Shown here: one piece after another, positions 10,247 to 35,734 of the stretch | Numbering within the stretch: the first letter of the stretch is position 1 | Layout: the number at the start of each line of letters is the position of its first letter | IMG/VR virus record: IMGVR_UViG_3300034072_002186 | Coordinates: 1-39,645 of that record | DNA from: a virus | Strand: one strand, 5' to 3' | DNA: 39,645 nt | Notes under the pieces: model-generated | What the model was told of the DNA's origin: nothing | Seen by the model: only the letters and a program-made list of their open reading frames with translations | Database searches by the model: none | Made by a program: the position numbers and the translations under genes

Positions 10247-10295
10247 GGAAATCGGGGACTTTCAGGAGCGGGGAGGAGGCGCAGGAAGCGAAGCT

Positions 10296-22400: not shown

Positions 22401-22435
22401 GCGCCTGCCCCGCGCCTGCGCGCCAGCGCGCGCCA

Positions 22436-22456
22436 TTGTGGCGCGCCGCCTTACAA
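22436..22456 (-). promoter_or_regulatory. Putative Ogr-type late operator, V unit
   Basis: On the minus strand it reads TTGTAAG, nine GC-only bases, then CACAA: a TTGT-N13-ACAA dyad. Its centre (22446) is 46 bp before ATG 22400 and 58 bp before ATG 22388 of V. P2 Ogr binds a TGT/ACA dyad centred near -55, so this is the likely activator site for the V-to-D unit. No clear -10 is visible. Confidence 0.65.
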
Positions 22457-22481
22457 GTCAGCGCAGGGCCGAGGGCGCATT

Positions 22482-22751
22482 TCAGGCCGGTTCGGACGGG
22501 GTTTCCGGCTCGGCCGCAGGTGCCGGCGTTGTGGCAGGCGCGGGGGCCGGCATGGTGATCAGGCCCTGATCGATCTTCTTTTCCACGCCCTGCGCCACTT
22601 CGGCAACGCGCGCCCTGGTGCCCACCGCGTCATAGCTGCCATCGGGCAGGGTGCAGGCGTTGACCGGGCGGCGATGGGTGACATTGCCATGCCGGAAGGT
22701 GACATTGACGGTGCCGGTGGCGGGATCGAACTTGCCGATGGTGGTCTTCAT
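22482..22751 (-). CDS. Hypothetical protein downstream of tail fibre
   Basis: An 89-aa protein. The N-terminal half (TTIGKFDPATGTVNVTFRHG, then VTHRRPVNACTLPDGSYD) is a short beta-rich domain. The C-terminus is Ala/Pro/Thr-rich and low complexity. ATG 22751 is chosen because the longer frame lacks support. It follows the tail fibre gene by 24 bases and is probably the last gene of the J-I-H unit, the place of fibre chaperones such as P2 G, but it is far shorter and not recognisably homologous. Confidence 0.68.
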   Translation of the reverse strand: MKTTIGKFDPATGTVNVTFRHGNVTHRRPVNACTLPDGSYDAVGTRARVAEVAQGVEKKIDQGLITMPAPAPATTPAPAAEPETPSEPA

Positions 22752-22774
22752 CGCGGGTATCCTTCGCTGCTGGA

Positions 22775-24349
22775 TCAGTAATGGGTGGCGATGCAACGCC
22801 ACGTGAAGCCCGCCCCGGCGGTGCCCGAACCGAGGCCAGAGACAAGCACGGAAAAGCCGTTGTTGGTTACAGAGGACTTGATGAGCTTCACCTCGAAATT
22901 GTCAGTCCCGCTGGAATTGTCGATCGTGGGCGTTACCTGAATATCCGCCGCGCTGACCGCCACCGATGCCAGCTGGCCGGTGGTACTGTAGGGCGTGGGG
23001 AAAGAGACGTTGTGCACGCCGTTGCTGGGCGATGACTGATAGCCCTGCTGGATGCGCATCTGCGAGCCATCGGTTAGCAGCAGGCGGAAGAAGCGCCACG
23101 CGGCAGGGCTTGAACTCTGCACCCCGTTCCACATCGCGTCGGCCCGCTTGAGGAACGCGGTGGAATCGAGCCCGTCGAGCAGATCGGCATCGAGGCCCGA
23201 GCCGGAACCATCGACCGTGATGATCTTGGCGATAAGCGCGGCAGCAGTGACCAGCCCATCGACATAGGCCTTGGTTGCGGCGTGCAGGTTGGCCGTGGGC
23301 GCACCGGAAAGGGTGAGAAGCCCGGTCATCGTGTCACCGGCCTTGTTCACCGGGGTATAGCCGAGGCGGGCGGCGATATCGGTGTAGAACGTGCCCTGTT
23401 GCCCATCGAGCAGATCGGCATCGAGGCCGGAGCCGGAGCCATCGACCGTGATGATCTTGGCCAGCAGCGCGGCAGCGGTGACCAGGCCATCGACATAGGC
23501 CTTTGTTGCGGCGTGAAGCGTGGCGGTGGGAGCGCCGGACAGCGTGAGCAGCCCGGTCATCGTGTCACCGGCGCGGTTCACCGGGGTATAGCCGATGGTG
23601 GCGGCGAACGCGGCATCGTCGACATACTTCTTGGTGGCGGCATGCAGGTTGGCCGTAGGCGCGCCGGACAGGGTCAGCAGCCCGGTCATCGTGTCACCGC
23701 CCTTGTTCACCGGGGTGAAGCCAAGGCGGGCCGCGATATCGGCGTAGTACGATCCGTTCTGCCCATCGAGCAGATCCGCATCGAGGCCCGAGCCGGAGCC
23801 ATCCTGTGTCAGCAACCATGAAAGCACCGCTGCCTTGGCGATCGCCGTGGTCAGGATCCGGGCGGCGTCGGTTCCGGCCAGCGCTTCGGCCAGCGTGGCG
23901 AGCTCGGCCACGCCTGCAGTATCGACCGTGGCAGGGGGATAGAAGAAATTGGTGTTACCGAATGAAAGGCTGGCGGCAGAGATATCGGCGAAGATCGCGT
24001 CAATCGCGAGCAGGGCCGTGCTCGATGCCGACTTTTCGATGATCGGGGTTGGCTGGCCATAAATGCCGAACAGGGTGCCATCGGCAAGGTAGAGGGCAAA
24101 GCTGCGCGCGGTCCACACATCGGCGCTTTCATCGGTCACGCCGATGTGGATCGTGTCATCCGCCACGGCGGCGCCCGATACCCCGGCAATGCGCTTGAAC
24201 TCTCCGGCAAGTGCAGTGGCGGTGGCAACCGGCGTGATCGCGGTGGCCGAAAGGCCGACTTCGGAAATGGTGACAGGCGCGGTGCCGGTGTTCTCGGCAT
24301 TGACGATCGCAGCGCGGCCCGCGTTGGTGACGACGATATTGAGCGGCAT
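22775..24349 (-). CDS. H: Tail fibre protein (gpH-like) with internal repeats
   Basis: A 524-aa tail fibre. The N-terminus (PLNIVVTNAGRAAIVNAENT) resembles the P2 H baseplate-attachment domain. Residues about 185-395 are repeats combining GDTMTGLLTLSGAPTA, LHAATKAYVDG and GSGSGLDADLLDG, typical of trimeric fibre shafts. The C-terminal 120 residues are a distinct beta-rich head, probably the receptor-binding tip. It follows I by 26 bases with GGAG upstream. It is shorter than P2 H (669 aa), and no invertase is present. Confidence 0.9.
   Translation of the reverse strand: MPLNIVVTNAGRAAIVNAENTGTAPVTISEVGLSATAITPVATATALAGEFKRIAGVSGAAVADDTIHIGVTDESADVWTARSFALYLADGTLFGIYGQPTPIIEKSASSTALLAIDAIFADISAASLSFGNTNFFYPPATVDTAGVAELATLAEALAGTDAARILTTAIAKAAVLSWLLTQDGSGSGLDADLLDGQNGSYYADIAARLGFTPVNKGGDTMTGLLTLSGAPTANLHAATKKYVDDAAFAATIGYTPVNRAGDTMTGLLTLSGAPTATLHAATKAYVDGLVTAAALLAKIITVDGSGSGLDADLLDGQQGTFYTDIAARLGYTPVNKAGDTMTGLLTLSGAPTANLHAATKAYVDGLVTAAALIAKIITVDGSGSGLDADLLDGLDSTAFLKRADAMWNGVQSSSPAAWRFFRLLLTDGSQMRIQQGYQSSPSNGVHNVSFPTPYSTTGQLASVAVSAADIQVTPTIDNSSGTDNFEVKLIKSSVTNNGFSVLVSGLGSGTAGAGFTWRCIATHY
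23166..23795 (-). repeat. Coding repeats in the tail fibre shaft
   Basis: GDTMTGLLTLSGAP-coding DNA occurs three times (around 23290-23330, 23530-23570 and 23660-23700), and GSGSGLDADLLDG-coding DNA three times (around 23175-23215, 23405-23445 and 23765-23800). Copies are nearly identical at nucleotide level, with spacings of roughly 230-240 bp for the complete module and 130 bp for a shortened one. Such repeats allow fibre-length change by recombination. Confidence 0.8.
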
Positions 24350-24375
24350 GGCTTATGGCTCCTGCGCGGACGGGA

Positions 24376-24921
24376 TCAGGTTGCGGGGGCAGTGATGCGG
24401 GCGAACACGGCGGGACGCGCCACGGCGCGAAGGCCGATGCGGGCCGTGGCGTTCACTCCCACCACGAAGGTGAAGTGCGATCGGGCGGGCTTGGTGCGCG
24501 CCACTTCGGAAATCACCGCATCGATGAAGGCGGAACTGGGCGCTTCATCGCCCAAGGTTCCGAGCGTTACGGTGAGCTTGAAGGTGTAGGGATCGGCGGG
24601 GGGCGATTCCTGAAACCATTCGCGCAGCACGATGTTGCCGCCGAAGCTGCGCACCACGTCTTCCACGGATTGCGCCGTGCCCTTGATCCGCTGGATCGCG
24701 ATGGCCGAGGCCACGCGGGCACGGCGGATGTGCAGTGGCCAATCGGCATCCCAGCTGTCGATCGACAGGCCCCAGGCGAGCCACGGCAGCAGTTCTTCGG
24801 GGCAGTTCTCGGCAGACCACAGCGCGCGCAGCGGGCTTTCGATCGCATCGATCCGCATCGCCGCCAGCAGATCGGCGGCGCGCTCCATGGGGGTGCTGGC
24901 GAAGGGCAGCAGGCCCATCAT
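24376..24921 (-). CDS. I: Baseplate protein gpI
   Basis: A 181-aa homologue of P2 gpI (about 176 aa), a baseplate component holding the fibre. TPMERAADLLAAMRIDAIESPL followed by NCPEELLPWLAWGLSIDSWD is the family signature. IRRARVASAIAIQRIKGTAQSVEDV is the conserved helical repeat. The ATG overlaps the J stop (ATGA), and H follows, the conserved J-I-H order. Confidence 0.94.
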   Translation of the reverse strand: MMGLLPFASTPMERAADLLAAMRIDAIESPLRALWSAENCPEELLPWLAWGLSIDSWDADWPLHIRRARVASAIAIQRIKGTAQSVEDVVRSFGGNIVLREWFQESPPADPYTFKLTVTLGTLGDEAPSSAFIDAVISEVARTKPARSHFTFVVGVNATARIGLRAVARPAVFARITAPAT

Positions 24922-25820
24922 TCACCCACGCCGCCGTCCGTCAGGGTGACGGCGGTGCAATAGCCGGCCTGAAGGCGCGTGATGGCGACATCGGCAGCAG
25001 GCGCGGTCAGCACCACATTGTGCACCCCATCGGGGGCCAGTGCGGCAATGATCCCGGCCCGCGTGATATCGCGCCCCAGGCGGCGCAGATCGGCAAGATG
25101 GGCAGCAAGGCGCTGCTGTGCCGTGGCCATGACAACGGCGCGATCCGGCCCGGGCAGGAAGGTGAGCGTGGCCGTGACGGCAAAGTTGACGATCGCGGCG
25201 GACTGCACCGTTACCTGATCGGTCAGGGGGCGCACCGATGCGGAATTGAGGCGGGCGTTGACGGTGGCCAGCAAGGGCGCGGCTGCCGTACCATCGCCGC
25301 TGCGCGCCAGAACGGCCACCACCACTTCGCCGGGATCGGGGCTGGTGGCCGATGCATCGAGCACTTCGGACGAGGCCGAGATGGCGTGGAAGATATAGGC
25401 CCCTTCCGGACCCGCCACGGAATAGCCTTCGGGGGCAAGGGTCAGGCGGCGGCGGAAATCATCATCGCTTTCCAGCACTTCGGGCGTGCCGGTGAGCGGG
25501 TTGGCCGGGGTGACGATGAACCGTTCGATGCCGAACAGCGCGGCAAGGTGATCCAGATCGGCACCGGTGGCAAAGGCGGGCATCACGGCCTTCGCCGCAT
25601 CGTTCACGCGCTGGCGCAACACGATCTCGCGATAGGCGAACAGTTCGATCAGCTTGACGATCGGATCGCTTTCCAGATCGGCGGTCCAACCCGGAAACAG
25701 CGAGGCGAACTGGGCCTTGGCCTGCGCCACGATGGTTTCGAAATCGAGCTGCTCGATCACGTTCGGCGCGGGAAGGCGCGACAGGTCGACCCCGGTGAAG
25801 CTGTCGGATGCAATTGCCAT
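24918..25820 (-). CDS. J: Baseplate wedge protein gpJ
   Basis: A 300-aa homologue of P2 gpJ (302 aa, T4 gp6-like wedge). VDLSRLPAPNVIEQLDFETIVAQ is the typical start. ESDPIVKLIELFAYREIVLRQRVNDAAKAVMPAFATG and GADLDHLAALFGIER follow in the expected order. ATG 25820 is chosen by homology length. No Shine-Dalgarno is visible before it (ATCACCGGGCC), and a TTGT-N13-ACAA dyad is centred 56 bp upstream, which could give a leaderless mRNA. It heads the unit J-I-H plus an 89-aa gene. Confidence 0.94.
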   Translation of the reverse strand: MAIASDSFTGVDLSRLPAPNVIEQLDFETIVAQAKAQFASLFPGWTADLESDPIVKLIELFAYREIVLRQRVNDAAKAVMPAFATGADLDHLAALFGIERFIVTPANPLTGTPEVLESDDDFRRRLTLAPEGYSVAGPEGAYIFHAISASSEVLDASATSPDPGEVVVAVLARSGDGTAAAPLLATVNARLNSASVRPLTDQVTVQSAAIVNFAVTATLTFLPGPDRAVVMATAQQRLAAHLADLRRLGRDITRAGIIAALAPDGVHNVVLTAPAADVAITRLQAGYCTAVTLTDGGVGE

Positions 25821-25865
25821 GGCCCGGTGATCGTGCGGGCGGGGCAATGCCTCAACGCCCGCGCG

Positions 25866-25886
25866 TTGTGCCACGCTGTCTTACAA
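25866..25886. promoter_or_regulatory. Putative Ogr-type late operator, J / fibre divergent region
   Basis: A TTGT-N13-ACAA dyad centred at 25876 in the divergent gap. Read toward J it shows TTGTAAG, the same extended half as the P and V sites. From the centre, 55 bp reaches 25821 (one base before the J ATG) and 25931 (26 bases before the plus-strand fibre gene, whose leader includes a GGAG). One site may serve both directions. Confidence 0.65.
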
Positions 25887-25956
25887 GGTGCGCGGCTCGA
25901 AAGGCGGGGGCCGGGGCGGCAGGGTCCGCCTGCACATCCCCAGCCCCGGAGCCTTC

Positions 25957-26325
25957 ATGTCCGTGCCGCCGATCTACCGTTTCCAGCGTGGCGAACCGAT
26001 CGTGATCGGGCGCGAAGTGGTTTCGGGCGATCCGGAAGGCTACTCCGTTGACGCGGTGCTGAAGCGGACCAGCGGGCAGGTGGTGCCCAAGGCCAGCACC
26101 GAAGCCAGCGCCACGTTCGATGTGGCCTTCGAACCGGCACAGGGCAGCGGGCCGGGCGCAATCAAGGCGCGCTGGCTGCTGACCATCCCGGCCACGGTAA
26201 CCGCCAATCTTTCCCCGGGGCAGTACGCCGCCGACGCGCGATTCCTGCTGGACGGCGAGGTGGTGCAGATCACGGACCCGGTGTTCATCACCCTTGCTGA
26301 AAGCATCAGCGGGGCCAGTGGCTGA
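25957..26325 (+). CDS. Fibre-cassette hypothetical protein
   Basis: A 122-aa beta-rich protein. ATG 25957 follows GGAG by 5 bases. YRFQRGEPIVIGREVVSGDP and the closing DARFLLDGEVVQITDPVFIT resemble small phage proteins that accompany tail fibres and form immunoglobulin-like folds. It is the first gene of the plus-strand cassette facing J. Its stop overlaps the next ATG (TGATG). Probably a virion or fibre-accessory component; the exact role is unknown. Confidence 0.72.
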   Translation: MSVPPIYRFQRGEPIVIGREVVSGDPEGYSVDAVLKRTSGQVVPKASTEASATFDVAFEPAQGSGPGAIKARWLLTIPATVTANLSPGQYAADARFLLDGEVVQITDPVFITLAESISGASG

Positions 26326-26675
26326 TGCTGGTCACCCGTTGGATACAGCCCGCACCCGCGCTGCAAACGGCGTGGTTCGGCCCGGATGGGCGGATCGAGG
26401 CAGCAGCGCTGCAGCGCCCCGATGCGGCGGCAGTGCCGGTGGTGATCGGTCCGCGCGGGCCGGAAGGCGCAGCGGGCGGGGCAAACAGCATCACGTGGCG
26501 CCCACCCAGTGCGCTCGAGACGTGGATCATCCCGCACAACCTGGGCCACTACCCCACGGTGCAGATCTTCGATGTCGACGGCGCGGAAGTGGGCCCCGCC
26601 ATCACCCAGCTTGACGTGAACACCCTATCCATCAGCTTCGGCGTGCCTTTCGCAGGCATTGCCGTGCTGATCTGA
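26325..26675 (+). CDS. Small tail-tip protein with collagen-like stretch
   Basis: A 116-aa protein. Residues 38-52 include GPRGPEGAAGG, a short collagen-like G-x-y run that would trimerise. The C-terminal 50 residues (WIIPHNLGHYPTVQIFDVDG followed by SISFGVPFAGIAVLI) form a small domain also found at the end of the next protein: H-N-L-G, then a strand pair, then a T/S-F-G ending. This suggests a short trimeric receptor-binding tip. It is coupled to the upstream gene by a 1-base overlap. Confidence 0.75.
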   Translation: MLVTRWIQPAPALQTAWFGPDGRIEAAALQRPDAAAVPVVIGPRGPEGAAGGANSITWRPPSALETWIIPHNLGHYPTVQIFDVDGAEVGPAITQLDVNTLSISFGVPFAGIAVLI

Positions 26676-26691
26676 CCGAAAGGCAGCAGCC

Positions 26692-27777
26692 ATGAAGATC
26701 TTCGTCCCTTACGATTTCCAGGGCAACGCAATCCGCGGTGCCTCGCTCGATGCCCGCGCCTCGGCACCGGCAAGCCCGGTGGCGGGGCAAGTCTATTTCG
26801 ATACCACGCTGGGCCGCCTGCAGATTTATCAGAACAGCGCATGGGGCCACACCGCCGACAATTCGCTGTCCTTCAACGGCCAGAACGCCGCGTTCTACCT
26901 TTCCCGGGCGAACCACACCGGCACGCAGACCGCCGCGACGATCAGCGATCTGGCCACCACGGTGCAAGCCTATCGCCTTGATCAGTTCGCCGCGCCCACA
27001 GCGGCGGTCTCGCTCAATTCCCAGCGCATCACCAACCTTGCCGATCCCACTTCGGCGCAGGACGCGGCAACGCGCGGATGGGTGCAGGCCCAAGTGGCCA
27101 ACGCGGCGGCAGGGATCGACAGCAAGGCATCGGTGCGCGCCGTGGCCAACGCCAACATCACGTTGTCAGGCACCCAGACCATCGACGGCGTGGCCGTGGT
27201 GGCGGGTGACCGCGTGCTGGCCCGAGGGCAATCCACCGGCAGCCAGAACGGCGTTTACGTGGTCGCCGCCGGCGCATGGAGCCGCGCCGCCGATGCGGAC
27301 GAAAACTTCGAGCTGACGCCGGGTGCGTTCTGGTTTGTCGAGGAAGGCACCACTTACGGCAAATCGCAGTGGCGCATCGAGAACACCGGGACGATCACGG
27401 TTGGCACCACCAGCATCTCGATCAACCAGTTCGGCGCATCGACCAGCTATACCGCTGGCAACGGCGTGGATATCACCGGATCTGTCATCAGCGCCAAGAT
27501 CGTAGCCAGCGGTGGCCTTACCAACGGCGGCACCGGGCTGGCAATCGACACCGCGATCGTGGCGCGCAAGGCATCGGCCACCATCGGCAATGGTTCGCTT
27601 ACCTCTATACCGTTTGCCCACAACCTCGGCACGAAGGACGTGATCGTGCAGCTGCGCCTAGTGGCGACCGACGAAGTGATCATCGCTGACGTGGTTTGTA
27701 CCGATACCAACACCGTGACGGTCACCTTCGGCACGGCACCTGCGGCCAACTCTGTGCGGATCACGGTGCTGGGCTGA
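26692..27777 (+). CDS. Second tail fibre protein
   Basis: A 361-aa fibre-like protein. KIFVPYDFQGNAIRGASLDA and VAGQVYFDTTLGRLQIYQNS form a phage-fibre N-terminal unit. RITNLADPTSAQDAATRGWV is a common shaft attachment repeat. The middle contains an adhesin-like GDRVLARGQSTGSQNGVYVV domain known from many fibres. The C-terminus (AHNLGTKDVIVQL to VTVTFGTAPAANSV) repeats the tip domain of the preceding small protein. With H on the opposite strand, the phage carries two distinct fibres. Confidence 0.87.
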   Translation: MKIFVPYDFQGNAIRGASLDARASAPASPVAGQVYFDTTLGRLQIYQNSAWGHTADNSLSFNGQNAAFYLSRANHTGTQTAATISDLATTVQAYRLDQFAAPTAAVSLNSQRITNLADPTSAQDAATRGWVQAQVANAAAGIDSKASVRAVANANITLSGTQTIDGVAVVAGDRVLARGQSTGSQNGVYVVAAGAWSRAADADENFELTPGAFWFVEEGTTYGKSQWRIENTGTITVGTTSISINQFGASTSYTAGNGVDITGSVISAKIVASGGLTNGGTGLAIDTAIVARKASATIGNGSLTSIPFAHNLGTKDVIVQLRLVATDEVIIADVVCTDTNTVTVTFGTAPAANSVRITVLG

Positions 27778-27778
27778 T

Positions 27779-28555
27779 ATGGGCCTTAGCCTTGTTGGCA
27801 CCGCTTCTGCGATAAAGAGCACAAGCGGATCGACGTACACCGTCGATCTGGCTGCGCTCGGCGTCGCGGTGGGCGATATAGTCGTTGTTGCGGCGGGTCA
27901 GGGCGGGGGGACGGCTTCTGATGCGCCGACGGTTACGGGCAACAACAGCGGGGCCTACACCGTTGCAGGCTCAACCGTGTATGCGGATGACACGTGGGAC
28001 ACCAACTTTGGTCTGTTCTACAAGGTACAGGGGGCCACGCCCGACAGCGCCCTGACCATCACGCGCCTGTCCAGCACGATCTATGGCGGCGCAGCTGCTG
28101 TGCAAGTCTGGCGCGGCGTTGACACCACAAACCCGATTGACGTTGTTGGCACTGCTGTGGCGACCACCAACGCTTCGCGCGGCAATCCGCCCACCATCAC
28201 ACCAGTAACGCCCGGGGCTATTGTGATTGCGGCAGGGGCGGGCGTGCAGGGCACTGGCGGTTCCGCCTTTACAGTGCCCAGCGGCATGTCCAACGGGGTC
28301 AGCGTCAAGGCGGATGGCACTACCAGGGATATCGGGGTGTGGATCGCTTCCGCGACCTGGACAAGCGGCGCATATGACCCGCCAGCGTGGACCGGGGGCG
28401 CGACTTCGACCAGCTCGTCTGCTGCTGCACAGACCATCGCCCTGCGTCCACTGCTGATCCCCCGCTATCGCGGCGCCAAGACTCGAGCGCAAGCCTACCT
28501 CGGTGCAAAGTCCGACGCGCAGATCTACTTCGGCAAGGAAAAGCTGTTCCCCTGA
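27779..28555 (+). CDS. Putative adhesin/tail-tip protein
   Basis: A 258-aa Gly/Ala/Thr-rich beta protein starting one base after the fibre stop. It consists of repeated strands of the kind seen in phage head-decoration or fibre-tip sandwich domains (VAVGDIVVVAAGQGGGTAS, GAAAVQVWRG, TPGAIVIAAGAG). The last 30 residues contain a degenerate repeat (GAKTRAQAYLGAKSDAQIYF) unlike the rest, perhaps an assembly or anchoring tag. Probably part of the receptor-recognition complex; function inferred from position only. Confidence 0.72.
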   Translation: MGLSLVGTASAIKSTSGSTYTVDLAALGVAVGDIVVVAAGQGGGTASDAPTVTGNNSGAYTVAGSTVYADDTWDTNFGLFYKVQGATPDSALTITRLSSTIYGGAAAVQVWRGVDTTNPIDVVGTAVATTNASRGNPPTITPVTPGAIVIAAGAGVQGTGGSAFTVPSGMSNGVSVKADGTTRDIGVWIASATWTSGAYDPPAWTGGATSTSSSAAAQTIALRPLLIPRYRGAKTRAQAYLGAKSDAQIYFGKEKLFP

Positions 28556-28557
28556 TC

Positions 28558-28578
28558 TTGTAGCGCGGCGCGGAACAA
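28558..28578 (+). promoter_or_regulatory. Putative Ogr-type late operator, lysis unit
   Basis: A TTGT-N13-ACAA dyad, starting 3 bases after the stop of the preceding gene and centred at 28568. Counting 55 bp from the centre reaches 28623, which leaves a 21-base leader with AAGGAG (28631-28636) before the endolysin ATG. The interval is almost pure GC. This would give the lysis genes their own late promoter. Confidence 0.6.
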
Positions 28579-28643
28579 GGGCGGCGGGGCGCATCGCGCG
28601 CGCGGGAGGGGCACGGTGGGGCAACCGTTGAAGGAGCCCCCGC

Positions 28644-29198
28644 ATGACTGCCGCAACTTTCCCCAAGGGCTATGACTGGCTCGGCACCGTGGGCACGCTG
28701 CCCCGCACGATCACCGAAGGCCTGAAACTGCACGGCGTGGCCGAAGTGGTGGGCAAGGGATCGAATGCCACGATCATGAGCTGGCGCGATGAGCTCAATT
28801 CTGCAGGCGTGAAGATCGCCGGCTATTCCGATGATGACATTCCGTGGTGCGGCCTGTTCGCCGCGATCGTGGCGCATCGTGCGGGCAAGGCCGTGCCGCA
28901 AAATCCGCTGTGGGCGCGCAACTGGGCCAAGTTCGGCACGCCACAGGTGCGGGGCGGGCTGGGCGACGTGCTGGTGTTCGAACGGCCCGGGGGCGGCGGG
29001 CATGTGGGCTTCTACATCGCCGAGGACCGGACGGCGTTTCACGTCCTGGGCGGCAACCAGAGCAATGCCGTTTCAATCACGCGCATTCGCAAGGAACGCT
29101 GCATCGCAGTGCGCCGGCCGGAATATGCCGCGCCGCCGGCCAGCGCGCGCCGGTTCGAGCTGGCCGCATCGGGCGCCATTTCCACCAACGAGGCCTGA
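28644..29198 (+). CDS. Endolysin (TIGR02594-type, CHAP/NlpC-like)
   Basis: A 184-aa peptidoglycan hydrolase of the TIGR02594 family, a CHAP/NlpC-P60-like cysteine peptidase. The catalytic Cys69 lies in DDDIPWCGLFAA and His120 in GGGGHVGFYI. LGDVLVFERPG and HVLGGNQSNAVSITRI complete the fold. AAGGAG precedes the ATG. No signal peptide is present, so release needs a holin; candidates are the 30-aa peptide downstream and the 63-aa protein at 31397-31588. It begins the lysis cassette with nested spanins. Confidence 0.9.
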   Translation: MTAATFPKGYDWLGTVGTLPRTITEGLKLHGVAEVVGKGSNATIMSWRDELNSAGVKIAGYSDDDIPWCGLFAAIVAHRAGKAVPQNPLWARNWAKFGTPQVRGGLGDVLVFERPGGGGHVGFYIAEDRTAFHVLGGNQSNAVSITRIRKERCIAVRRPEYAAPPASARRFELAASGAISTNEA

Positions 29199-29199
29199 C

Positions 29200-29292
29200 A
29201 TGGGCGAACGCACGCTTTGTGCCGTCATCGTGGCCCTTGGGGGCCTGTCCCTGTTCGGCCTGATCGAGCAGCTGCTGGAGACTTGCCAATGA
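29200..29292 (+). CDS. 30-aa membrane peptide in lysis cassette
   Basis: A 30-aa gene between the endolysin and Rz. A charged start MGERTL leads to one hydrophobic span (CAVIVALGGLSLFGLI) and the polar tail EQLLETCQ. It follows the endolysin stop by one base, and its TGA overlaps the Rz ATG (ATGA), which supports translation. The GLIEQ junction equals that of the 33-aa early peptide at 6578-6679. Its position suggests a small holin or holin regulator. Confidence 0.65.
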   Translation: MGERTLCAVIVALGGLSLFGLIEQLLETCQ

Positions 29293-29879
29293 TCGAGAAG
29301 TGGGTCCGCGCCAATTGGCATTGGCTGGCGATTGGCGTGCTGGCCGTGCTGCTGGCGTTCCAGACCTTGCGCATCGAAGGGTTGCGCATGGGCCACGTGA
29401 AGATGTTCGGCGCGGATTTCTGGGCCGTCGATATCGATGGGTTCAAGCCCGCACTGGCGCAGTGCGAGGCGGACCGCGCCGCCATCATTACGGCGCAGGA
29501 CGAAGCCGCCGCGCTGCAAGCCGCTGCCAACGAAGACGAGGAGCGGCGCACCGCCGCCAATGCAGAAAGGAGCGATATCGCCCATGCGCAGGATCTGGAA
29601 CGCGCGGTGGCTGCTGGCCGCAGCTTTGCTGACCGCAATAGCATCGCCGCTGGCGGGGTGCGGCCCCAAGGTGATCGAGGCGCACCCGGCCAAGCCGCTG
29701 CCCCCGCCCAAAGTGGCAGTGCCGGACTTTCTTCAGAAGTGCCCGCCGATTCCTTCGTGGCTGTCGCAAGTGCTGATGTGCAGGCCTGCACCACCGCCGT
29801 GACTTATGCCGTGGGTGCCTTCAACTGGGCCCAGACACTACCCGCAGAGGCAGCGCCGGAACCACCGCCAGCGCAGTGA
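29289..29879 (+). CDS. Rz: i-spanin Rz-like
   Basis: A 196-aa inner-membrane spanin. One N-terminal transmembrane helix (WLAIGVLAVLLAFQTLRI) is followed by a long periplasmic helical region (CEADRAAIITAQDEAAALQA, continuing AANEDEERRTAAN) of coiled-coil type, as in lambda Rz. The o-spanin Rz1 lies entirely inside its coding sequence in another frame. The C-terminal third, which overlaps Rz1, is low complexity and Ala/Pro-rich, as expected for constrained overlapping genes. It fuses the envelope in the last step of lysis. Confidence 0.85.
   Translation: MIEKWVRANWHWLAIGVLAVLLAFQTLRIEGLRMGHVKMFGADFWAVDIDGFKPALAQCEADRAAIITAQDEAAALQAAANEDEERRTAANAERSDIAHAQDLERAVAAGRSFADRNSIAAGGVRPQGDRGAPGQAAAPAQSGSAGLSSEVPADSFVAVASADVQACTTAVTYAVGAFNWAQTLPAEAAPEPPPAQ
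29584..29802 (+). CDS. Rz1: o-spanin Rz1-like lipoprotein (nested in Rz)
   Basis: A 72-aa outer-membrane lipoprotein in the +1 frame within Rz. The signal peptide RRIWNARWLLAAALLTAIAS ends in the lipobox PLAGC with Cys26. The mature part is short and Pro-rich (HPAKPLPPPKVAVPDF), the hallmark of Rz1. ATG 29584 is preceded by AAAGGAG with 11 bases spacing. The completely nested arrangement resembles lambda Rz/Rz1. Confidence 0.88.
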   Translation: MRRIWNARWLLAAALLTAIASPLAGCGPKVIEAHPAKPLPPPKVAVPDFLQKCPPIPSWLSQVLMCRPAPPP

Positions 29880-29897
29880 CATTTCTGCCTGAATAGC

Positions 29898-29927
29898 AAG
29901 GCGCGCCGGGTTGCCCTGGCGCGCCTT
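29898..29927. terminator. Intrinsic terminator between convergent units
   Basis: AAGGCGCGCC (29898-29907) and its exact complement (29918-29927) flank a 10-base loop. Rightward it is followed by TAGCTTT, leftward by GCTATT, so it is a moderate bidirectional terminator. It lies 19 bases after the Rz stop, closing the plus-strand fibre-lysis unit. Confidence 0.8.
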
Positions 29928-29990
29928 TAGCTTTGCGTAACCGGTGACGGTCTGCGTACACCAGTGGGAGACCGGGCAAACCGCCACCGG

Positions 29991-30020
29991 GGCGGGCGGG
30001 GAGGCAAAGACCCGCCCGCC
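29991..30020. terminator. GC-rich hairpin after the minus-strand S-R region
   Basis: GGCGGGCGGG (29991-30000) pairs with CCCGCCCGCC (30011-30020) around a 10-base loop. It lies 14 bases after the stop of the 62-aa gene, the last gene of the minus-strand O-to-S unit, and probably ends that transcript. No U-tract follows, so termination could be factor-assisted. Confidence 0.62.
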
Positions 30021-30034
30021 GGGGGACGGCTCGC

Positions 30035-30223
30035 TTAGTGGGAAAGATCGCCGGTGCCAAGATCGTTGAGGTGGCACAACGCCTGATCGAGATCGATGCC
30101 GACCAGCATGAGGCCCGCTTCATCGGCAATGGCCAGCGCGGCCTCGATGTGGCTGCGCAGGCGCATGGGCCAATCGGGCTTGATGACTGGGGTTGCGGCG
30201 TGGTCGATCTGTACGGCTTGCAT
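30035..30223 (-). CDS. Hypothetical protein
   Basis: A 62-aa acidic, helical protein. A strong Shine-Dalgarno AAGGAGG lies 6 bases before the ATG. The sequence (MRLRSHIEAALAIADEAGLM followed by LVGIDLDQALCHLNDLGTG) looks like a compact helical domain. It is the last gene of the minus-strand unit after S, between two hairpins. Function unknown. Confidence 0.75.
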   Translation of the reverse strand: MQAVQIDHAATPVIKPDWPMRLRSHIEAALAIADEAGLMLVGIDLDQALCHLNDLGTGDLSH

Positions 30224-30259
30224 GCGGGGCCTCCTTATCGGTTGAGGGTGCGGGTGATG

Positions 30260-30739
30260 TCAGGAGCCTTCGACCATCCGGATCGCGGTATCGAGGATGG
30301 CCTGCCTATCCTCTGGCGAGAAGCCCAAGAGGCGGCGCGCGGCGTAACGTGTTTGCACTACTTGACCACGCCTGGTGCGGCCCACGGAATCGACCTGACC
30401 GTACTGGTGCACTGATGCGATGCGTGAATCCGTGCCAGCCTTGAAACCGACCTCGGTCTGATCCTCGCTGGCCTGCACCCGCAGGAAGCGGGCGAGCCTG
30501 ATCTTGGCGAACATCTTGGCCGTGCGGCGCACCTTGCCGTGGCGATCGGCGAGGCGCTTCTTTTGCTTTCTTGGCGCCATGGCGGCACCATCGGGTTCAA
30601 CGTTTGCCGCGATGCGCAGTGCGTTGGCGCGGCGGGCCTGCTGGCCGATGGCCTGCGCGGCCTTGCGGCGCTGTGCCGGCGCGAGGCGATCGAGATAACC
30701 CTGCAGCCATGGTTCCAGCGCTTCGAGATCTTCGGCCAC
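30260..30739 (-). CDS. S: Tail completion protein gpS
   Basis: A 159-aa homologue of P2 gpS (phage virion morphogenesis, PF05069), needed to finish the tail for joining to the head. The GTG start gives AEDLEALEPWLQGYLDRLAP. RRKAAQAIGQQARRANALRI and the C-terminal YAARRLLGFSPEDRQAILD are family signatures. R and S are adjacent as in P2. Confidence 0.92.
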   Translation of the reverse strand: MAEDLEALEPWLQGYLDRLAPAQRRKAAQAIGQQARRANALRIAANVEPDGAAMAPRKQKKRLADRHGKVRRTAKMFAKIRLARFLRVQASEDQTEVGFKAGTDSRIASVHQYGQVDSVGRTRRGQVVQTRYAARRLLGFSPEDRQAILDTAIRMVEGS

Positions 30740-30750
30740 GCGCGCGCCCT

Positions 30751-31230
30751 TCAGGTTTCGATCGGCAGGATGGGTTCATCGGGATCGGCGTTGCGCCAGA
30801 TCTCGCGCAGGTTGCCGCCGATCTCGTCTTCATCATCGAACAGCTTTGGCTCTTCGAGGTATTCCAGCACCACGCCGCCATCGGGCTGGGGATGGGCCAG
30901 CACGGCTTCGGACAGGCGCAGGGTGAACTGCACGTCCACTTCCTTGTCATTCAGCACATCGGCTTCGAAGGTGTATCCCGTCTTTGCCGTGAGCAGATCG
31001 GGCTGATTGCGCTGCAGCCACAGGTTGATCGCAAGGGAAAGGATTGCCGGATCCTTGGCGAAGCCGGAAACCACCACGTTGAGGGTGTATTCCCATTCGA
31101 AATGCGCCGCGCCGCCGCCGATCGAGCGCACCTTGCCGGTTTCGAGCCAGATCAGCAGGCGATCCGGCGAGGCCGCAAGATCGGGATCGCGGGCCACGAT
31201 GGCGGCGCGAAGCGAGGCGGGCTTGCGCAT
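30751..31230 (-). CDS. R: Tail completion protein gpR
   Basis: A 159-aa homologue of P2 gpR (155 aa, PF06891), which acts with S in tail completion. MRKPASLRAAIVARDPDLAA and the strand-rich FEWEYTLNVVVSGF, then QRNQPDLLTA are typical. The ATG overlaps the stop of the 55-aa gene upstream (TGATG), and S starts 11 bases after its stop. Confidence 0.92.
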   Translation of the reverse strand: MRKPASLRAAIVARDPDLAASPDRLLIWLETGKVRSIGGGAAHFEWEYTLNVVVSGFAKDPAILSLAINLWLQRNQPDLLTAKTGYTFEADVLNDKEVDVQFTLRLSEAVLAHPQPDGGVVLEYLEEPKLFDDEDEIGGNLREIWRNADPDEPILPIET

Positions 31231-31397
31231 CAGGCCACCGATACGGTGCGGCGGCGCGCGGGGCGTGCTGCGCGGGCCTTGGGCTGGCGCGGGGCCGGGG
31301 CATCATCGGGCAGGGCAGGGGCAAAACTGGCCACGGCCAGCGTGAGACCGGCCACGGCGTTGCGGATCGCCCTTCCGCTTTCGGCGCGTTCGCACAT
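31230..31397 (-). CDS. 55-aa small protein between holin-like gene and R
   Basis: A 55-aa gene supported by TGATG overlaps with both neighbours. A moderately hydrophobic segment (AIRNAVAGLTLAVASFAPAL, residues 10-29) is followed by a Pro/Arg/Ala-rich basic tail. It occupies the place of P2 lysA-lysC. It might be a secreted or membrane-associated accessory lysis protein, but there is no lipobox and no recognised family. Confidence 0.65.
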   Translation of the reverse strand: MCERAESGRAIRNAVAGLTLAVASFAPALPDDAPAPRQPKARAARPARRRTVSVA

Positions 31398-31588
31398 CAG
31401 CGCGGCCCCCGGCTGTTGTTGTTGATCGCGTTGGTGAGGTTGGCCAACGCGGTGGCCAGTTCCTTGTCGGTCTCGACCCGCTCCTGGTCGATCTTGTCGC
31501 GCCGCATCTGCTGCCAGATGAGGTATCCGACAAACGACCCGGCGGGGCCGAAGCTGGTGATGATCTGGGAAAGGACAGTCTGATCCAT
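31397..31588 (-). CDS. Holin-like small membrane protein
   Basis: A 63-aa protein with a short hydrophobic N-terminal helix (SFGPAGSFVGYLIWQQM) followed by a charged helical tail (KIDQERVETDKELATALANL). This layout resembles BhlA/UviB-type holin-like proteins. It lies just after X, the position of the P2 holin Y. ATG 31588 is two bases after the X stop. Holin function is inferred from size and position. Confidence 0.68.
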   Translation of the reverse strand: MDQTVLSQIITSFGPAGSFVGYLIWQQMRRDKIDQERVETDKELATALANLTNAINNNSRGPR

Positions 31589-31590
31589 GA

Positions 31591-31806
31591 TCAATCCCAC
31601 AGGTTCACGGTTTCGCGCAGCGCGGCGGTTGCGGCAGGGGGATCGGGCAGGATCACCACGGTTCCTTCGGCCAGAAGCGGGCCTGCATCGGCAAGCCCGC
31701 GGTTCAATGCATAGGCCTGTTCCAGCAGACCCGAGGTTGCACCCAGCTCGCGCCAGCAAAGCAGATCGAGCGTATCGTCCTGCTGGGCCGTTACGGTGCG
31801 GGGCAT
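31591..31806 (-). CDS. X: Tail protein gpX (LysM-like)
   Basis: A 71-aa homologue of P2 gpX (67 aa, PF05489). RTVTAQQDDTLDLLCWRELG followed by VILPDP is the LysM-like fold of this essential tail protein. It begins 16 bases inside the gene for the 70-aa membrane protein upstream, an overlap larger than elsewhere in this unit. Confidence 0.92.
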   Translation of the reverse strand: MPRTVTAQQDDTLDLLCWRELGATSGLLEQAYALNRGLADAGPLLAEGTVVILPDPPAATAALRETVNLWD

Positions 31807-32003
31807 GGCGTCGCCCTCGGCGGGTTAAAGGCATCCCATGAAAGGCGGTATGGCCAGTACAGCGGCCAACCTAGCCCTGCCATGAAGGCTGGTACGCCCG
31901 GGAAATGATCACATTCACGAGTAAAACGAGCTCCTTGGTGGCCGAATGTGAGCACCGAACCGAGCAGGTAGATCGTGGCGAAGATAGCGGCAGCCTTCTT
32001 CAT
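31791..32003 (-). CDS. Small membrane/secreted protein between L and X
   Basis: A 70-aa protein starting with a signal-like segment (KKAAAIFATIYLLGSVLTFG) and continuing with an aromatic stretch (PAFMAGLGWPLYWPYRLSW) that could form a second span. The ATG overlaps the L stop (TGATG). P2 has no equivalent between L and X. No family recognised; a virion, lysis or exclusion role cannot be told apart. Confidence 0.7.
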   Translation of the reverse strand: MKKAAAIFATIYLLGSVLTFGHQGARFTRECDHFPGVPAFMAGLGWPLYWPYRLSWDAFNPPRATPCPAP

Positions 32004-32479
32004 CAGATCAGCTCCACCGTGGTGCGTGGCACGCCGAGGATATCGCGCACGGCTTGGGTGGCGAGCTTGCGATAGTCACCGGCGGTGCACAGTTCGGCAT
32101 CGGCGCGCACGATCATCTCATTCGTGGCCGAAGTATCGCGGTGGCCTTCGAGCAGTTCGGCAGCGGCGTGGAACCGGACCGCGCGGATCCACAGCAGCTC
32201 CAACCGGGTGAAGCCATCGATCATCTCGTCCGGGGCGACGGCGGAAAGGGTTTCCACCCCGGCGGCGCGCTGCGTGGCGGTCCAATCGCGCAGTTCGGCC
32301 TGCACCGTGATGATCGCGCCCCGCACCGCTTCGACCAGGCGCACATGGGTGACCGCATCGCCGAGGCGCAGCGCTTCGCGCATCGCGCCGCAATCAATCT
32401 CGGGCCACCAGTCACCGGCAGTCACCGTGGCATTGACCGGGCTTTGCGGTGCGGGAGGGACGGCGACGAAGGCGGACAT
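32003..32479 (-). CDS. L: Head completion protein gpL
   Basis: A 158-aa homologue of P2 gpL (169 aa, PF05926), which stabilises the filled head and prepares the neck. WWPEIDCGAMREALRLGDAVTH and the C-terminal DYRKLATQAVRDILGVPRTTVELI are family signatures. ATG 32479 is preferred to an upstream TTG at 32494. A 99-base stretch upstream, before the 46-aa gene, shows no gene. Confidence 0.9.
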   Translation of the reverse strand: MSAFVAVPPAPQSPVNATVTAGDWWPEIDCGAMREALRLGDAVTHVRLVEAVRGAIITVQAELRDWTATQRAAGVETLSAVAPDEMIDGFTRLELLWIRAVRFHAAAELLEGHRDTSATNEMIVRADAELCTAGDYRKLATQAVRDILGVPRTTVELI

Positions 32480-32578
32480 CACGGCGACTTTCAAACGGGT
32501 GGGGGGTGAGGTTGCGGCCTTTGGTTCGCTTGCGCTGCCGCGGTCGCTTCCGCCCCCCGGCTCGGGTGGAGCAGCTCG

Positions 32579-32719
32579 TTATCGGCAGCGGCGGGGGCTG
32601 CGCGGATGACCGGTGATCAGGTGTCGATGTCCATGCATCCGAAAGCTCGAAAGGATGGGGAAGTCGAACAGCACCAAGGCGAGGATGAGGGCAAAGCCGA
32701 TCAGGGATTGAAAGATCAT
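32579..32719 (-). CDS. 46-aa membrane peptide between M and L
   Basis: A 46-aa gene. Its ATG overlaps the terminase small-subunit stop (ATGA) and GGAG lies 7 bases upstream, inside M. A hydrophobic helix (IFQSLIGFALILALVLFDFP) is followed by a basic His/Arg-rich tail (HGHRHLITGHPRSPRR). It is another short membrane protein placed between conserved head genes with no P2 counterpart. Confidence 0.65.
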   Translation of the reverse strand: MIFQSLIGFALILALVLFDFPILSSFRMHGHRHLITGHPRSPRRCR

Positions 32720-33456
32720 TGTGCTTCTCCGGTCTGGGCCTTCTTCAGTTCGCGGTCGAGGGCCTCGATCAGCTTCTTCACGCCTGCGCCCTTGTCGAGC
32801 GTCAGCGCGGACTGGAAGCAATCGCGGGCGTTCTGCAACAGAGAGGATTTGCCCCCGGCCACGGCGTTGTCAGCCGTGGGGTCGAAGGCATCGGCGGCGC
32901 GCTGGAAAGCGAGGCCGAGCGCCTTGTAGAGCTTGGATTCGACCTGGTCGAACATGTCGCGGCCCAGCAGCAGCTCGTCGAACTTCTGCAGCGTCACGAG
33001 GTCGATCGAGGGAGCAGGGGCGAGACCGGCCTCGGCCACCTGTTCGGCGATCAGGGTGGCGGGCTGGCGCTTGTAGCGCTCGGGCAGGGCAAGGCCGTGC
33101 TTGAGGAAGTGTTGGGCGAGGGCGTAAGCCAGATCCCAGTCGGCGATGTCGAGGGACCAGATCAGCATGTTGCCGACGATCTCGTCCTGGGCGGGCTGCT
33201 CGGCGGCAAGCGCGCCTTCCACCCACGGCAGGTACTGGCCGATCATGCCGCGCTTGGCTTCGATCTTCTTGTCGGTCGACTGGATCTGGCGCAGCCGGTT
33301 CATGTCGATCTGCAGGGCGGCGAGGAGCTGCTGGTACTCGCTGGCGACGGGGCCGGTGGTTGGCATAGGTGCGGCAGCGCCTTCGCGCGAGACGGCGCCG
33401 CTGGCGAGACCGGCGAGTTTGCGTTGAAAGCTGGCTTTGGCGGGGGACAGGGCCAT
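32716..33456 (-). CDS. M: Terminase small (endonuclease) subunit gpM
   Basis: A 246-aa homologue of P2 gpM (247 aa, PF05944), the terminase subunit that cuts cos DNA. ALSPAKASFQRKLAGLASGA, DWDLAYALAQHFLKHGLALP and RYKRQPATLIAEQVAEAGL are characteristic. ATG 33456 is chosen by family length; the frame remains open further upstream toward N but that is not used. It follows a T-tailed hairpin after the capsid gene. Confidence 0.93.
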   Translation of the reverse strand: MALSPAKASFQRKLAGLASGAVSREGAAAPMPTTGPVASEYQQLLAALQIDMNRLRQIQSTDKKIEAKRGMIGQYLPWVEGALAAEQPAQDEIVGNMLIWSLDIADWDLAYALAQHFLKHGLALPERYKRQPATLIAEQVAEAGLAPAPSIDLVTLQKFDELLLGRDMFDQVESKLYKALGLAFQRAADAFDPTADNAVAGGKSSLLQNARDCFQSALTLDKGAGVKKLIEALDRELKKAQTGEAQ

Positions 33457-33470
33457 CGGGATCACTTTCA

Positions 33471-33514
33471 AAAACGCCCCTCCGGATGTCCGGACGGGTC
33501 CGGTCCGGAGGGGC
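33471..33514 (-). terminator. Rho-independent terminator/attenuator after the capsid gene
   Basis: GCCCCTCCGGA (33476-33486) pairs exactly with TCCGGAGGGGC (33504-33514), with a secondary CCGG pairing inside. On the minus-strand transcript the stem is followed by GTTTTTG, a classic intrinsic terminator. Its place between N and M would make capsid mRNA more abundant than the downstream M-to-S part. Confidence 0.85.
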
Positions 33515-33557
33515 AGTTGTCGCCCGGAGCTGGTCGAAGGCTCCGGCAGGGTCAGGG

Positions 33558-34592
33558 TCAGGCGGCGGCGTGCTCTTCGATGTTCTCGATGAGGCAGGCG
33601 TATTCGAGGTTCTCGATCACGTAGGCCTCGTTCGAGGACTGGTAGTCGGTCACGCGATCGTACTCCGGCTCGTCCTTGATCAGGCGGCGGCGCTTGCCGT
33701 CCTGGTAGTAGATCGAGAGGTTGTCGAGGCGGGTGATGAACACCGTGCCGTTCGGGAAACCGGGCACGCGCATGGCGGGCAGGCCACCGAGACGCTTGGT
33801 GCTCATGATCACGTCGCGGGCGAGCTGCTCGGTCGGTGCTTCGTCCGAATTGACCATCGGGAAGTACTTGTCGTGCAACAGGTCGGAGCCGACGATCGCA
33901 ACCAGTTCGGTGTCGTTCTTCGCCCATTCGGCGAGGAGCGTTTCCTTGGCGTCCCAGACCAGCGCGTCGAGTGTCTTGTAGTCTGCGCTGGCATGAGTGC
34001 CGTAGGTCACCTTGCCGACAACGTCGCTGCCTTCGTCGAGCACGCGCGCTGCGTTCTCGAGGCGCATCTTCTCGAGCCAACCGATGTTGACGTCTTCGAG
34101 CGACGGATTGGCGCCGCGATCGGTGGCGGCAGCGGCGCTGGTGCCGTTGAAGCCGATCAGGATGCGGTCAAGCGCGATGCGCTGCACGATGTTGTCGCGC
34201 CACTTCGTCTCGAAGTCCGGGAACTTCGCCCAGAGATCGAGCTTGGCATAGCGCATCGCGACGTCGAAGTTGGTCTGCACGCAGGTGTACGTGCGGTTGT
34301 CCATCGCCGAGGGGTCGATGCCGTTGCGGCGGTTGCCACCGGCGGTGTTGGTGCGGCTTGCGATCGTGCTGCCGATGCCGAGGCCGATCAGCTCGCCCTG
34401 CATTTCATCGACCGGCGCGACGTTGATCATGCCGAGGAATTCGCTGCTGTCCTGCATGCGCTGTTCGAGCGTCTGCTGCACCGACGGCGCGACAGTGAAC
34501 TTGGCGGTCTGCGCGGTGGCCGCGTCGATGTCGTTGAGCAGCGCGATGTGGCTGACCATCGCAAAGAACTTGGCCCGGGTTTCATTCTTCAT
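33558..34592 (-). CDS. N: Major capsid protein gpN
   Basis: A 344-aa homologue of P2 gpN (357 aa, PF05125), the HK97-fold shell protein. MKNETRAKFFAMVSHIALLN and the conserved VDEMQGELIGLGIGSTIASRT, then NFDVAMRYAKLDLWAKFPDF are diagnostic. GAGGA lies upstream of the ATG. It is processed in P2 by the protease of gpO, which is also present here. The C-terminus is normal. Confidence 0.96.
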   Translation of the reverse strand: MKNETRAKFFAMVSHIALLNDIDAATAQTAKFTVAPSVQQTLEQRMQDSSEFLGMINVAPVDEMQGELIGLGIGSTIASRTNTAGGNRRNGIDPSAMDNRTYTCVQTNFDVAMRYAKLDLWAKFPDFETKWRDNIVQRIALDRILIGFNGTSAAAATDRGANPSLEDVNIGWLEKMRLENAARVLDEGSDVVGKVTYGTHASADYKTLDALVWDAKETLLAEWAKNDTELVAIVGSDLLHDKYFPMVNSDEAPTEQLARDVIMSTKRLGGLPAMRVPGFPNGTVFITRLDNLSIYYQDGKRRRLIKDEPEYDRVTDYQSSNEAYVIENLEYACLIENIEEHAAA

Positions 34593-34652
34593 GGATCGGT
34601 CCTCAAAGTTGGGGAGGCAGTAGGGCGCGGGCGAGGTTTCGGGGTGGCTGGC

Positions 34653-35558
34653 TCAGCAGTCCGTGCGGGCTGCGTTGACGTTCCCACCGGTCGCGAGGGA
34701 GCGCTGGGTGAAGCCCTGCGGGTTCGAGCCGGGGGTGAGCGCCGGGGTGGCTTCGAGCTTGTCGCTGACCGACTTCACGTCCGTCGTCAGCTTGTCGATC
34801 GAGGCCTTGGTGGTGGCGGCGAGTTCGGTGACCGTGGTCGCCATCTGGGTGATGATCGCGCCGAACGCAGCCATGGCGGTGCCGTCGATCTCGGGTGCGG
34901 CCGGAGCGGGAGGCGTGACCGGTTCCGCTTGAGATTCCTGCTGCTGGCCTGCGTTCTGGCCACCATTGATGAAGCGGTCGAAGAAGGCCTTGGCCGAGGC
35001 GAGGACGCCGGTCGGATCGGGGTTTGCGACGGGAGCTTCTTCGATCACCAACTCGGCCTCGATAGCTGCGGTGAACAGGTTGGCCGGATCCTGCTTGCGG
35101 GCGAGCAGCGGGTTCTTGTCACCCTGCGAGGCTGCGAACTGCAGCATTTCGGTGCCGAGGCTGGCGGGGCTGTCGGTCACGGCGAGGCCGACCAGGTAAG
35201 CCTTGCCGCTGTTGGCGAAGTTCGGGCTGATCTCGATCGAGGTGTAGAGCTTCTGGCGATCGTTGTTGATCGCGACCAGCTCGTCGGTCACGTCGAGCTC
35301 GGCGAAGAGGGCGAGCTTTTTTTCCTTCTTGCCGGCGAGTTCGATCTCGACCTCTTCGGTCTTGAGTGAGAGCACATCGCCATAGGACTTGAAGGGCTTG
35401 TCCGCGGTGATGCCGCGAATGTGCTCCATGTTCACCCGGGCCGCGTAGGTTTCGCGGTTATAGGTCGCAGCGGCATCGGCCAGCCACTGCCGCTCGATCG
35501 TGCGGCCATCGGTGGTGGCACCTTCGACAGCCACTCGGAAAAATCGCGTCTTCGCCAT
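34653..35558 (-). CDS. O: Capsid scaffold-protease gpO
   Basis: A 301-aa homologue of P2 gpO (284 aa, PF05929), an internal scaffold with an N-terminal serine protease. Asp17 (TTDGR), His46 (NMEHIRG) and Ser107 (LYTSIEI) fit the catalytic triad described for P2 gpO. The C-terminal half, with a Gln/Pro-rich linker and a coiled region (KASIDKLTTDVKSVSDKLEA), is the scaffold. GGAG precedes ATG 35558. It heads the late unit O-N-M-L-X-R-S. Confidence 0.93.
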   Translation of the reverse strand: MAKTRFFRVAVEGATTDGRTIERQWLADAAATYNRETYAARVNMEHIRGITADKPFKSYGDVLSLKTEEVEIELAGKKEKKLALFAELDVTDELVAINNDRQKLYTSIEISPNFANSGKAYLVGLAVTDSPASLGTEMLQFAASQGDKNPLLARKQDPANLFTAAIEAELVIEEAPVANPDPTGVLASAKAFFDRFINGGQNAGQQQESQAEPVTPPAPAAPEIDGTAMAAFGAIITQMATTVTELAATTKASIDKLTTDVKSVSDKLEATPALTPGSNPQGFTQRSLATGGNVNAARTDC

Positions 35559-35663
35559 GGGTTCGGCTCCGGTTCTCGGTTGGTGCCGTTCCCCTGGCGG
35601 GTGGGAACGGCTGATCTGACAGTCGCCAAAGGACAGTTGCCGGGGCATCTTCGCAACGCGGGC

Positions 35664-35690
35664 GCGTTGTAAGCCGCGCCGTCACAACGC
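35664..35690. promoter_or_regulatory. Putative Ogr-type late operator in the O/P divergent region
   Basis: A dyad GCGTTGT-N13-ACAACGC, the most symmetric of the four, centred at 35677. In the plus direction the half reads TTGTAAG and lies 58 bp before ATG of P; in the minus direction 55 bp reaches 35622, a 64-base leader before O. P2 also has divergent late promoters between O and P. CATAGC at 35720-35725 could be a weak -10 for P. Confidence 0.68.
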
Positions 35691-35734
35691 AGCGGGGGCG
35701 AAAGGGCTGGAACAAGCGCCATAGCTTGCCCGCT

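Follow-up and report, generated by a model that had tools for sequence, protein, structure and literature searches.

What recognises the inverted repeats that stand before the late genes of a P2-like phage? The 39,645-bp IMG/VR virus record IMGVR_UViG_3300034072_002186 (G+C 64%), analysed here over its whole length and called the window below, encodes such a phage and carries four dyads of the form TTGT-N13-ACAA together with a homologue of the late activator Ogr. Comparison of these sequences with those of related phages and prophages leads us to conclude that the four dyads are very probably the DNA-binding sites of the phage's Ogr-family activator.

An exact search for TTGT-N13-ACAA returned four matches in the window, starting at 22436, 25866, 28558 and 35667 (Table 1), whereas dinucleotide shuffles held 0.10 on average, at most two and never four. 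Among 7,936 dyads (256 four-base half-sites at 31 spacings), this one was the most enriched, with 4 copies against 0.15 expected, and the next best reached 9-fold. The same half-sites at spacings of 0-12 and 15-19 gave zero matches in the window. A lone TTGT-N14-ACAA at 12695-12716 lies inside the gene downstream of CI (12571-12999), where there is no late gene, and is likely a chance occurrence. The original prediction had described four identical 21-bp dyads in non-coding gaps before late genes. The sites are exactly these four, but the identity is confined to the outer 8 bases, as the inner 13 differ. All four are indeed non-coding once the true gene starts are applied (V 22388, J 25820, lysozyme 28644, O 35558 and P 35735), and they lie ahead of P2-type late genes. 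Its chance estimate of 0.6 copies was too high for a window of 64% G+C. Its concern that sites had been overlooked in a scan by eye proved unfounded: one-mismatch dyads in the window were at background level (7 against 4.5), and likewise none rose above background at spacings of 0-40, which indicates that no additional operator was missed. Two of the dyads (25866 and 35667) sit between divergent genes, so that four sites can serve six late transcripts.

A search via the terminase identified 43 relatives, and 38 relatives were retrieved whole or nearly whole and analysed alongside the window. An exact TTGT-N13- or N14-ACAA dyad was present in the gap between P and O in 41 of the 43. In the 38 relatives and the window, a dyad or a longer palindrome precedes V, J or P/O, except in G005 and G018, where only tentative sites could be picked by eye. 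The inner bases vary freely among relatives. In several phages the flanking genes have been inverted or moved, yet the dyad is kept at the junction, as predicted for a two-directional activator site; in G008, G028, G029, G030, G032, G033, G035, G039 and G041-G044, V and J face each other with one dyad between them. Counting exact copies at each phage's own spacing, we found 69 at V, J or P and 14 elsewhere in 29 phages, compared with 2.7 per other spacing; the 14 may include several additional late units. The pattern check across related phages proposed in the original prediction thus came out in its favour, the dyad being common in late gaps and rare elsewhere.

Prophages from cellular genomes, retrieved afterwards, provided a set independent of motif discovery. 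Here, 15 of 18 P gaps contained an exact N13 or N14 dyad with an in-frame start codon 56-59 bp from its centre, and one more had the start at 62 bp. In 22 prophages, most of them from an even sample of the family, a palindrome is centred 55.5-60 bp before the V or J start; as only centres 54-62 bp ahead of a start were considered here, the result tells whether a palindrome occupies that place and is no test of the phase. A Hyphomonadaceae metagenome-assembled genome (L260) carries before P a perfect 26-bp palindrome, GCAGCGAGTTAAGCTTAACTCGCTGC, with its centre 54 bp ahead of the P start codon.

The geometry of these sites is fixed. Across the relatives and the window, the distance between dyad centre and start codon is without exception 56-61 bp (36/36 for V, 35/35 for J and 32/32 for P, 103 in total), and the window itself shows 58, 56 and 58 bp, respectively. 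Earlier V starts at 22436 or 22400 were rejected, since a start at 22388 (MRTPED) agrees with the conserved N-terminus as well as with a phase of 56-58 bp. A -35-like box is found 21-26 bp from the dyad centre, with a TTG at 21-23 bp, followed after a 17-bp spacing by a -10-like box (CATGGT, CATAGC) at 43-49 bp. A P2-like transcription start about 55-58 bp from the centre would fall on the start codon, and the V, J and P messages are therefore probably leaderless. This is in agreement with the scarcity of Shine-Dalgarno-like tetramers before V, J and P starts (2/101), compared with 88-100% before the starts of O, N, FII and H. For O, whose start in the window is 119 bp from the centre, as for the lysis gene at 76 bp and the plus-strand fibre gene at 81 bp, there is room for a leader, and for these genes we infer leaders with Shine-Dalgarno sequences.

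While the position is fixed across relatives, the spacing and the half-site change along with Ogr. Each of the 29 phages with TTGT dyads uses one spacing throughout, either 13 or 14. Where TTGT is absent, the relatives have palindromes of other sequence in these positions, again one type per phage: CATTTGGA-TCCAAATG in G010, G019 and G025, CATCGGGCGAGA-TCTCACCCGATG in G009 and G011, GTGTCGGG-CCCGACAC in G015, CATATGGAGAGG-CCTCTCCATATG in G022 and CTGTATAA-TTATACAG in G021, with CCCTCGTT-AACGAGGG, GCGTCGGGG-CCCCGACGC and ATTGTCAG-CTGACAAT in further genomes. Operator distance correlated with Ogr distance (r = 0.74), also when each of ten other phage proteins was controlled for (partial r 0.30-0.72), whereas none of the ten correlated with operator distance once Ogr was controlled for (partial r -0.11 to 0.16). 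The independent set of 22 prophages gave r = 0.49 (partial 0.34; 0/2000 permutations). In the pair G009 and G010, P and J are 86% and 82% shared, but Ogr merely 42%, and the operators are unrelated. This better co-variation with Ogr than with the ten other proteins indicates that the site belongs with Ogr rather than simply with the late genes. The P/O gap of Vibrio phage K139 (L243) holds a different palindrome, TTCGGATATGGGGTTATATCCGAA, which suggests that class-switching extends past the phages of Alphaproteobacteria.

Three hosts (G053, G172 and G250) harbour two P2-like prophages with two different operator classes. On the single chromosome of Sphingomonas sp. IC081 (G053; L254/L285, L276-L277), prophages with TTGT-N14-ACAA and CATTTGG-CCAAATG reside together, each with its own Ogr. 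Different classes would stop co-resident prophages from switching each other on, although three cases are no proof of selection.

The Ogr homologue of the window matches Pfam Ogr_Delta (PF04606) with E = 1.2e-11 and 44.8 bits, well over the curated cut-off of 26.3, and belongs to phrog_603 (transcriptional regulator). Its C-X2-C-X22-C-X4-C zinc finger is formed by C32, C35, C58 and C63, all invariant in the alignment, so both the homology and the exact finger that had been read from the sequence hold. The structure model has a confident core (residues 31-75; predicted local distance difference test score >90 in the three-strand core) and disordered ends, the tail being of low confidence. No solved structure resembled the protein by sequence, and a Foldseek search returned nothing significant, NrdR being the best match (E = 0.085).

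P2 and 186, with their activators Ogr and B, share with the window one dyad per late unit, one common to the divergent P and O genes, and an activator with a four-cysteine finger. In the P2 annotation (NC_001895), the pV activator site spans 10239-10266 with the dyad centre at 10251, and transcription starts at 10308, which is the V start codon; in 186 (NC_001317), the B site (14091-14110) is centred 58.5 bp from the pJ start (14159). The distance from centre to transcription start in these phages, about 55-58 bp, and the V transcript of P2 starting at the start codon would fit the geometry predicted for the window, with -10-like boxes at 43-49 bp and start codons at 56-58 bp. The window differs in its spacing of 13, which does not fit the P2 consensus TGT-N12-ACA (PMC3931495), in fuller TTGT/ACAA half-sites and in the arrangement of its units: J is separate from V, V is grouped with the FI-D genes, and lysis has a site of its own. 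For the Ralstonia phages phiRSA1 and phiRSY1, the motif TGTTGT-N13-ACAACA has been proposed (PMC5694545); they resemble the window in that TTGT-N13-ACAA precedes four late units, its centre lying 50-90 bp from the start codons, and in having an Ogr homologue. They infect another host class, and that proposal, made in silico for one phage group, included neither co-variation nor start-codon phasing. The pattern also occurs in Pseudomonas phage Dobby. Hence, a spacing of 13 is neither new nor peculiar to the window's branch. The reading of the dyads as operators in the original prediction is supported by their conservation in late gaps and the co-variation with Ogr. In Stenotrophomonas phage Smp131, promoters PP', PO', PJ' and PV' were proposed with sites only similar to TGT-N12-ACA (PMC3931495). 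Its late-unit division is that of the window, but the regions upstream of P, O, J and V contained no exact TGT/ACA dyad at distances of 10-15 bp.

From the computed sites, positions, conservation and co-variation we infer binding by an Ogr dimer, the transcription starts and leaderless translation, which together outline a possible course of late gene activation. Ogr would be expressed as part of the early operon (Cro-like, CII-like, Ogr, primase). As a symmetric dimer it would bind every dyad, about 56 bp ahead of the point where transcription starts, and recruit the host sigma-70-type polymerase to promoters with weak -35-like and -10-like boxes. Two dyads would fire in both directions, giving six late transcripts from four sites, and transcription of V, J and P would start at the start codon. 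In a less certain step, the disordered tail of Ogr may contact the host beta clamp and thereby couple late transcription to replication.

Late transcription in P2 normally depends on replication. The tail of the window Ogr reads ...RDPSQPDMFDAP and contains QPDMF; relatives have QPELF, QPGLF, QPDLF, QLNLF, QINLF, QLSMF, QMSIF or QTSIF in this place, and distant Ogr proteins QLDLL (Dobby), QLSML (K139, at the very end), QMDIF, QLDML, QLTLNL or QMRLGF. Clamp-binding motifs follow Q-aliphatic-x-[LM]-[FL] or are one residue longer, with a tolerant position 2, as in QLNLF of Pol V and QADMF of Pol III alpha (PMC11139829). QPDMF departs from this pattern at position 2 (Pro). The strict motif is present in 12 of 81 dereplicated tails, compared with 1.05 in shuffles (maximum of 1000: 6) and 5 of 371 other phage proteins; for the broad motif the numbers are 26 of 81, 2.25 (maximum 8) and 15 of 371. 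The motif forms clusters within lineages on the Ogr tree and needs 12 changes, at least 8 of them forced by well-supported branches, so a clamp-like motif recurs across the family. These data suggest that the disordered tail carries a beta-clamp-binding-like motif which would tie late transcription to replication. T4 offers a precedent for clamp-coupled late genes, with the gp45 sliding clamp acting together with gp55/gp33 (PMC2988020, PMC7892883). The idea of a late transcription factor that couples late genes to replication by a C-terminal clamp-binding motif is the same. Ogr differs in being an operator-binding activator with a zinc finger, and its clamp would be the beta clamp of the host. 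Homologues without the motif (G009-G025, G015, G016 and others) often end in ANDD/ANDR..P repeats, e.g. AANDRAANDDGPPSEP. P2 replication is dispensable for the activation of P2 late genes by P4 Delta (PMC12239096, citing Halling and Calendar 1990), and no clamp-like tail motif was found in Delta. We propose tentatively, as a possibility that we rate somewhat below an even chance, that Ogr proteins may be clamp-tethered, operator-specific late switches, in which a fast-diverging finger reads a phage-specific palindrome located at a constant distance and the tail motif requires a replicating template. We found no report linking Ogr to the beta clamp in this sense in the open-licence literature, subscription papers being mostly outside the search.

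Several points weigh against these interpretations. Shared ancestry is not fully removable by partial correlations, the rival proteins controlled for were ones other than the early DNA-binding CI, CII and Cro, and the operators of the second set were picked partly by position. The -10 and -35 boxes are weak and differ between promoters, and the V box of the window is off by 1-2 bp. The tail motif is short and missing from about half or more of the Ogr homologues; the group of the window has Pro as its second residue, and the versions in P2 (QQIMWM) and 186 (QRPLWL) are non-canonical.

Three further putative DNA-binding regulators are encoded in the window, and the long perfect palindromes of some relatives resemble repressor operators. 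The dyads could thus be bound by CI, CII, the Cro-like protein or a host regulator, with Ogr acting elsewhere or without dyads. We consider this unlikely, as the dyads occur only at late genes with none in the early control region, operator sequence tracks Ogr after control for other proteins, and annotated activator sites of the same family lie at the same places in P2 and 186. It is highly improbable that the dyads are RNA or DNA structures between late units, such as terminators, attenuators or processing sites: they are intergenic inverted repeats, and one starts 3 bp past a stop codon (28555), but the window arms have just 4 bp around 13-base loops with no T-run, the inner sequence is free to vary, and the distance upstream of start codons is fixed even in divergent gaps where no transcript ends. 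The pattern is short (8 fixed bases), but its origin by chance or from the composition of a G+C-rich genome is refuted by a position conserved in dozens of independent records, in addition to 4 copies against 0.10 expected, and is hardly conceivable.

A satellite sharing these operators was also sought. No recognisable one was found: the extra Ogr copies belong to a second P2-like prophage (G053) or to an orphan repressor-Ogr pair (G052 and G086). In these two Novosphingobium-group genomes, a repressor is divergent from a short Ogr (L273, G052:C9 ~113788-115150; L292, G086:C7 ~143509-144870), next to housekeeping genes (phospholipid synthesis, rpsB-tsf-pyrH) and with a TTGT-N13-ACAA about 1 kb off. 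The orphan Ogr of G052 is about 61% identical to that of the window, and its tail has no QxxMF motif. The pairs are possibly a domesticated or satellite-like remnant.

Besides the features in Table 1, the window encodes an integrase, a methylase and a DUF5131 protein and, beyond the CI-like repressor, D, U, T, FII, FI, H, I, fibre-like genes, S, R, L, M, N and, with P divergent from O, Q. The closest cellular relatives of its terminase are from Novosphingobium and other sphingomonads. Its ogr gene lies in the early operon (10682-11885), after the Cro-like and CII-like genes and before the primase, as in KL3 and Dobby and unlike P2, where ogr follows D. In K139-like phages, an early ogr position may alter the timing of late genes (PMC8537503).

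Table 1. Putative operators, predicted promoter boxes and selected genes of the window.
Feature	Position	Strand	Remarks
Putative Ogr operator before V unit (V-FI-FII-T-U-D, minus strand)	22436..22456		centre 22446; V ATG 58 bp away
Putative Ogr operator between divergent J (minus) and tail-fibre-like genes (plus)	25866..25886		centre 25876; J ATG 56 bp away
Putative Ogr operator before lysis genes (plus)	28558..28578		centre 28568; CHAP/lysozyme ATG 76 bp away
Putative Ogr operator common to divergent P (plus) and O (minus)	35667..35687		centre 35677; P ATG 58 bp away
Predicted -10 of V promoter (CATGTC)	22396..22401	-	
Predicted -35 of J promoter (TTGAGG)	25850..25855	-	
Predicted -10 of J promoter (CGATCA)	25828..25833	-	
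Predicted -10 of plus-strand fibre promoter (CAGGGT)	25920..25925	+	
Predicted -10 of lysis promoter (CACGGT)	28612..28617	+	
Predicted -10 of P promoter (CATAGC)	35720..35725	+	CATAGCGTG recurs in relatives
Predicted -35 of O promoter (TTGCGA)	35651..35656	-	conserved in relatives
V (baseplate spike)	21852..22388	-	ATG 22388; predicted leaderless; unit V-FI-FII-T-U-D
J (baseplate)	24918..25820	-	ATG 25820; predicted leaderless
P (terminase large subunit)	35735..37618	+	ATG 35735; predicted leaderless
O (scaffold/protease)	34653..35558	-	ATG 35558; predicted 5' leader of ~60 nt
Lysozyme/CHAP endolysin-like gene	28644..29198	+	ATG 28644; preceded by GAAGGAG
Ogr/Delta-family activator, 127 aa	10682..11065	-	four-cysteine finger at residues 32-63; disordered tail with QPDMF (residues 111-115)
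CII-like regulator	11062..11508	-	upstream of ogr, early operon
Cro/YdaS-like regulator	11505..11885	-	first gene of early operon
CI-like repressor (helix-turn-helix + S24)	11912..12574	+	divergent from early operon
DNA primase	7517..10246	-	downstream of ogr, same direction

We found no report of class-switching at a fixed position, of the start-codon phase or of the tail motif in the open-licence literature, a search that reached few subscription papers. Judged from the sequences, the operators most likely switch on the virion and lysis genes of a P2-like sphingomonad phage. A motif known from single phages becomes a testable system with dozens of natural activator/operator pairs in a fixed geometry; with these, the code by which the Ogr zinc finger recognises its site could be read, swapped and used for orthogonal promoters. 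In addition, leaderless late messages are predicted throughout a phage group. The putative clamp-binding tail is a candidate mechanism for the long-known replication dependence of P2 late transcription. If true, it would be a bacterial-clamp counterpart of gp45-driven late transcription in T4 and would account for the difference between P2 late genes, which need P2 replication, and the motif-less P4 Delta, which does not.

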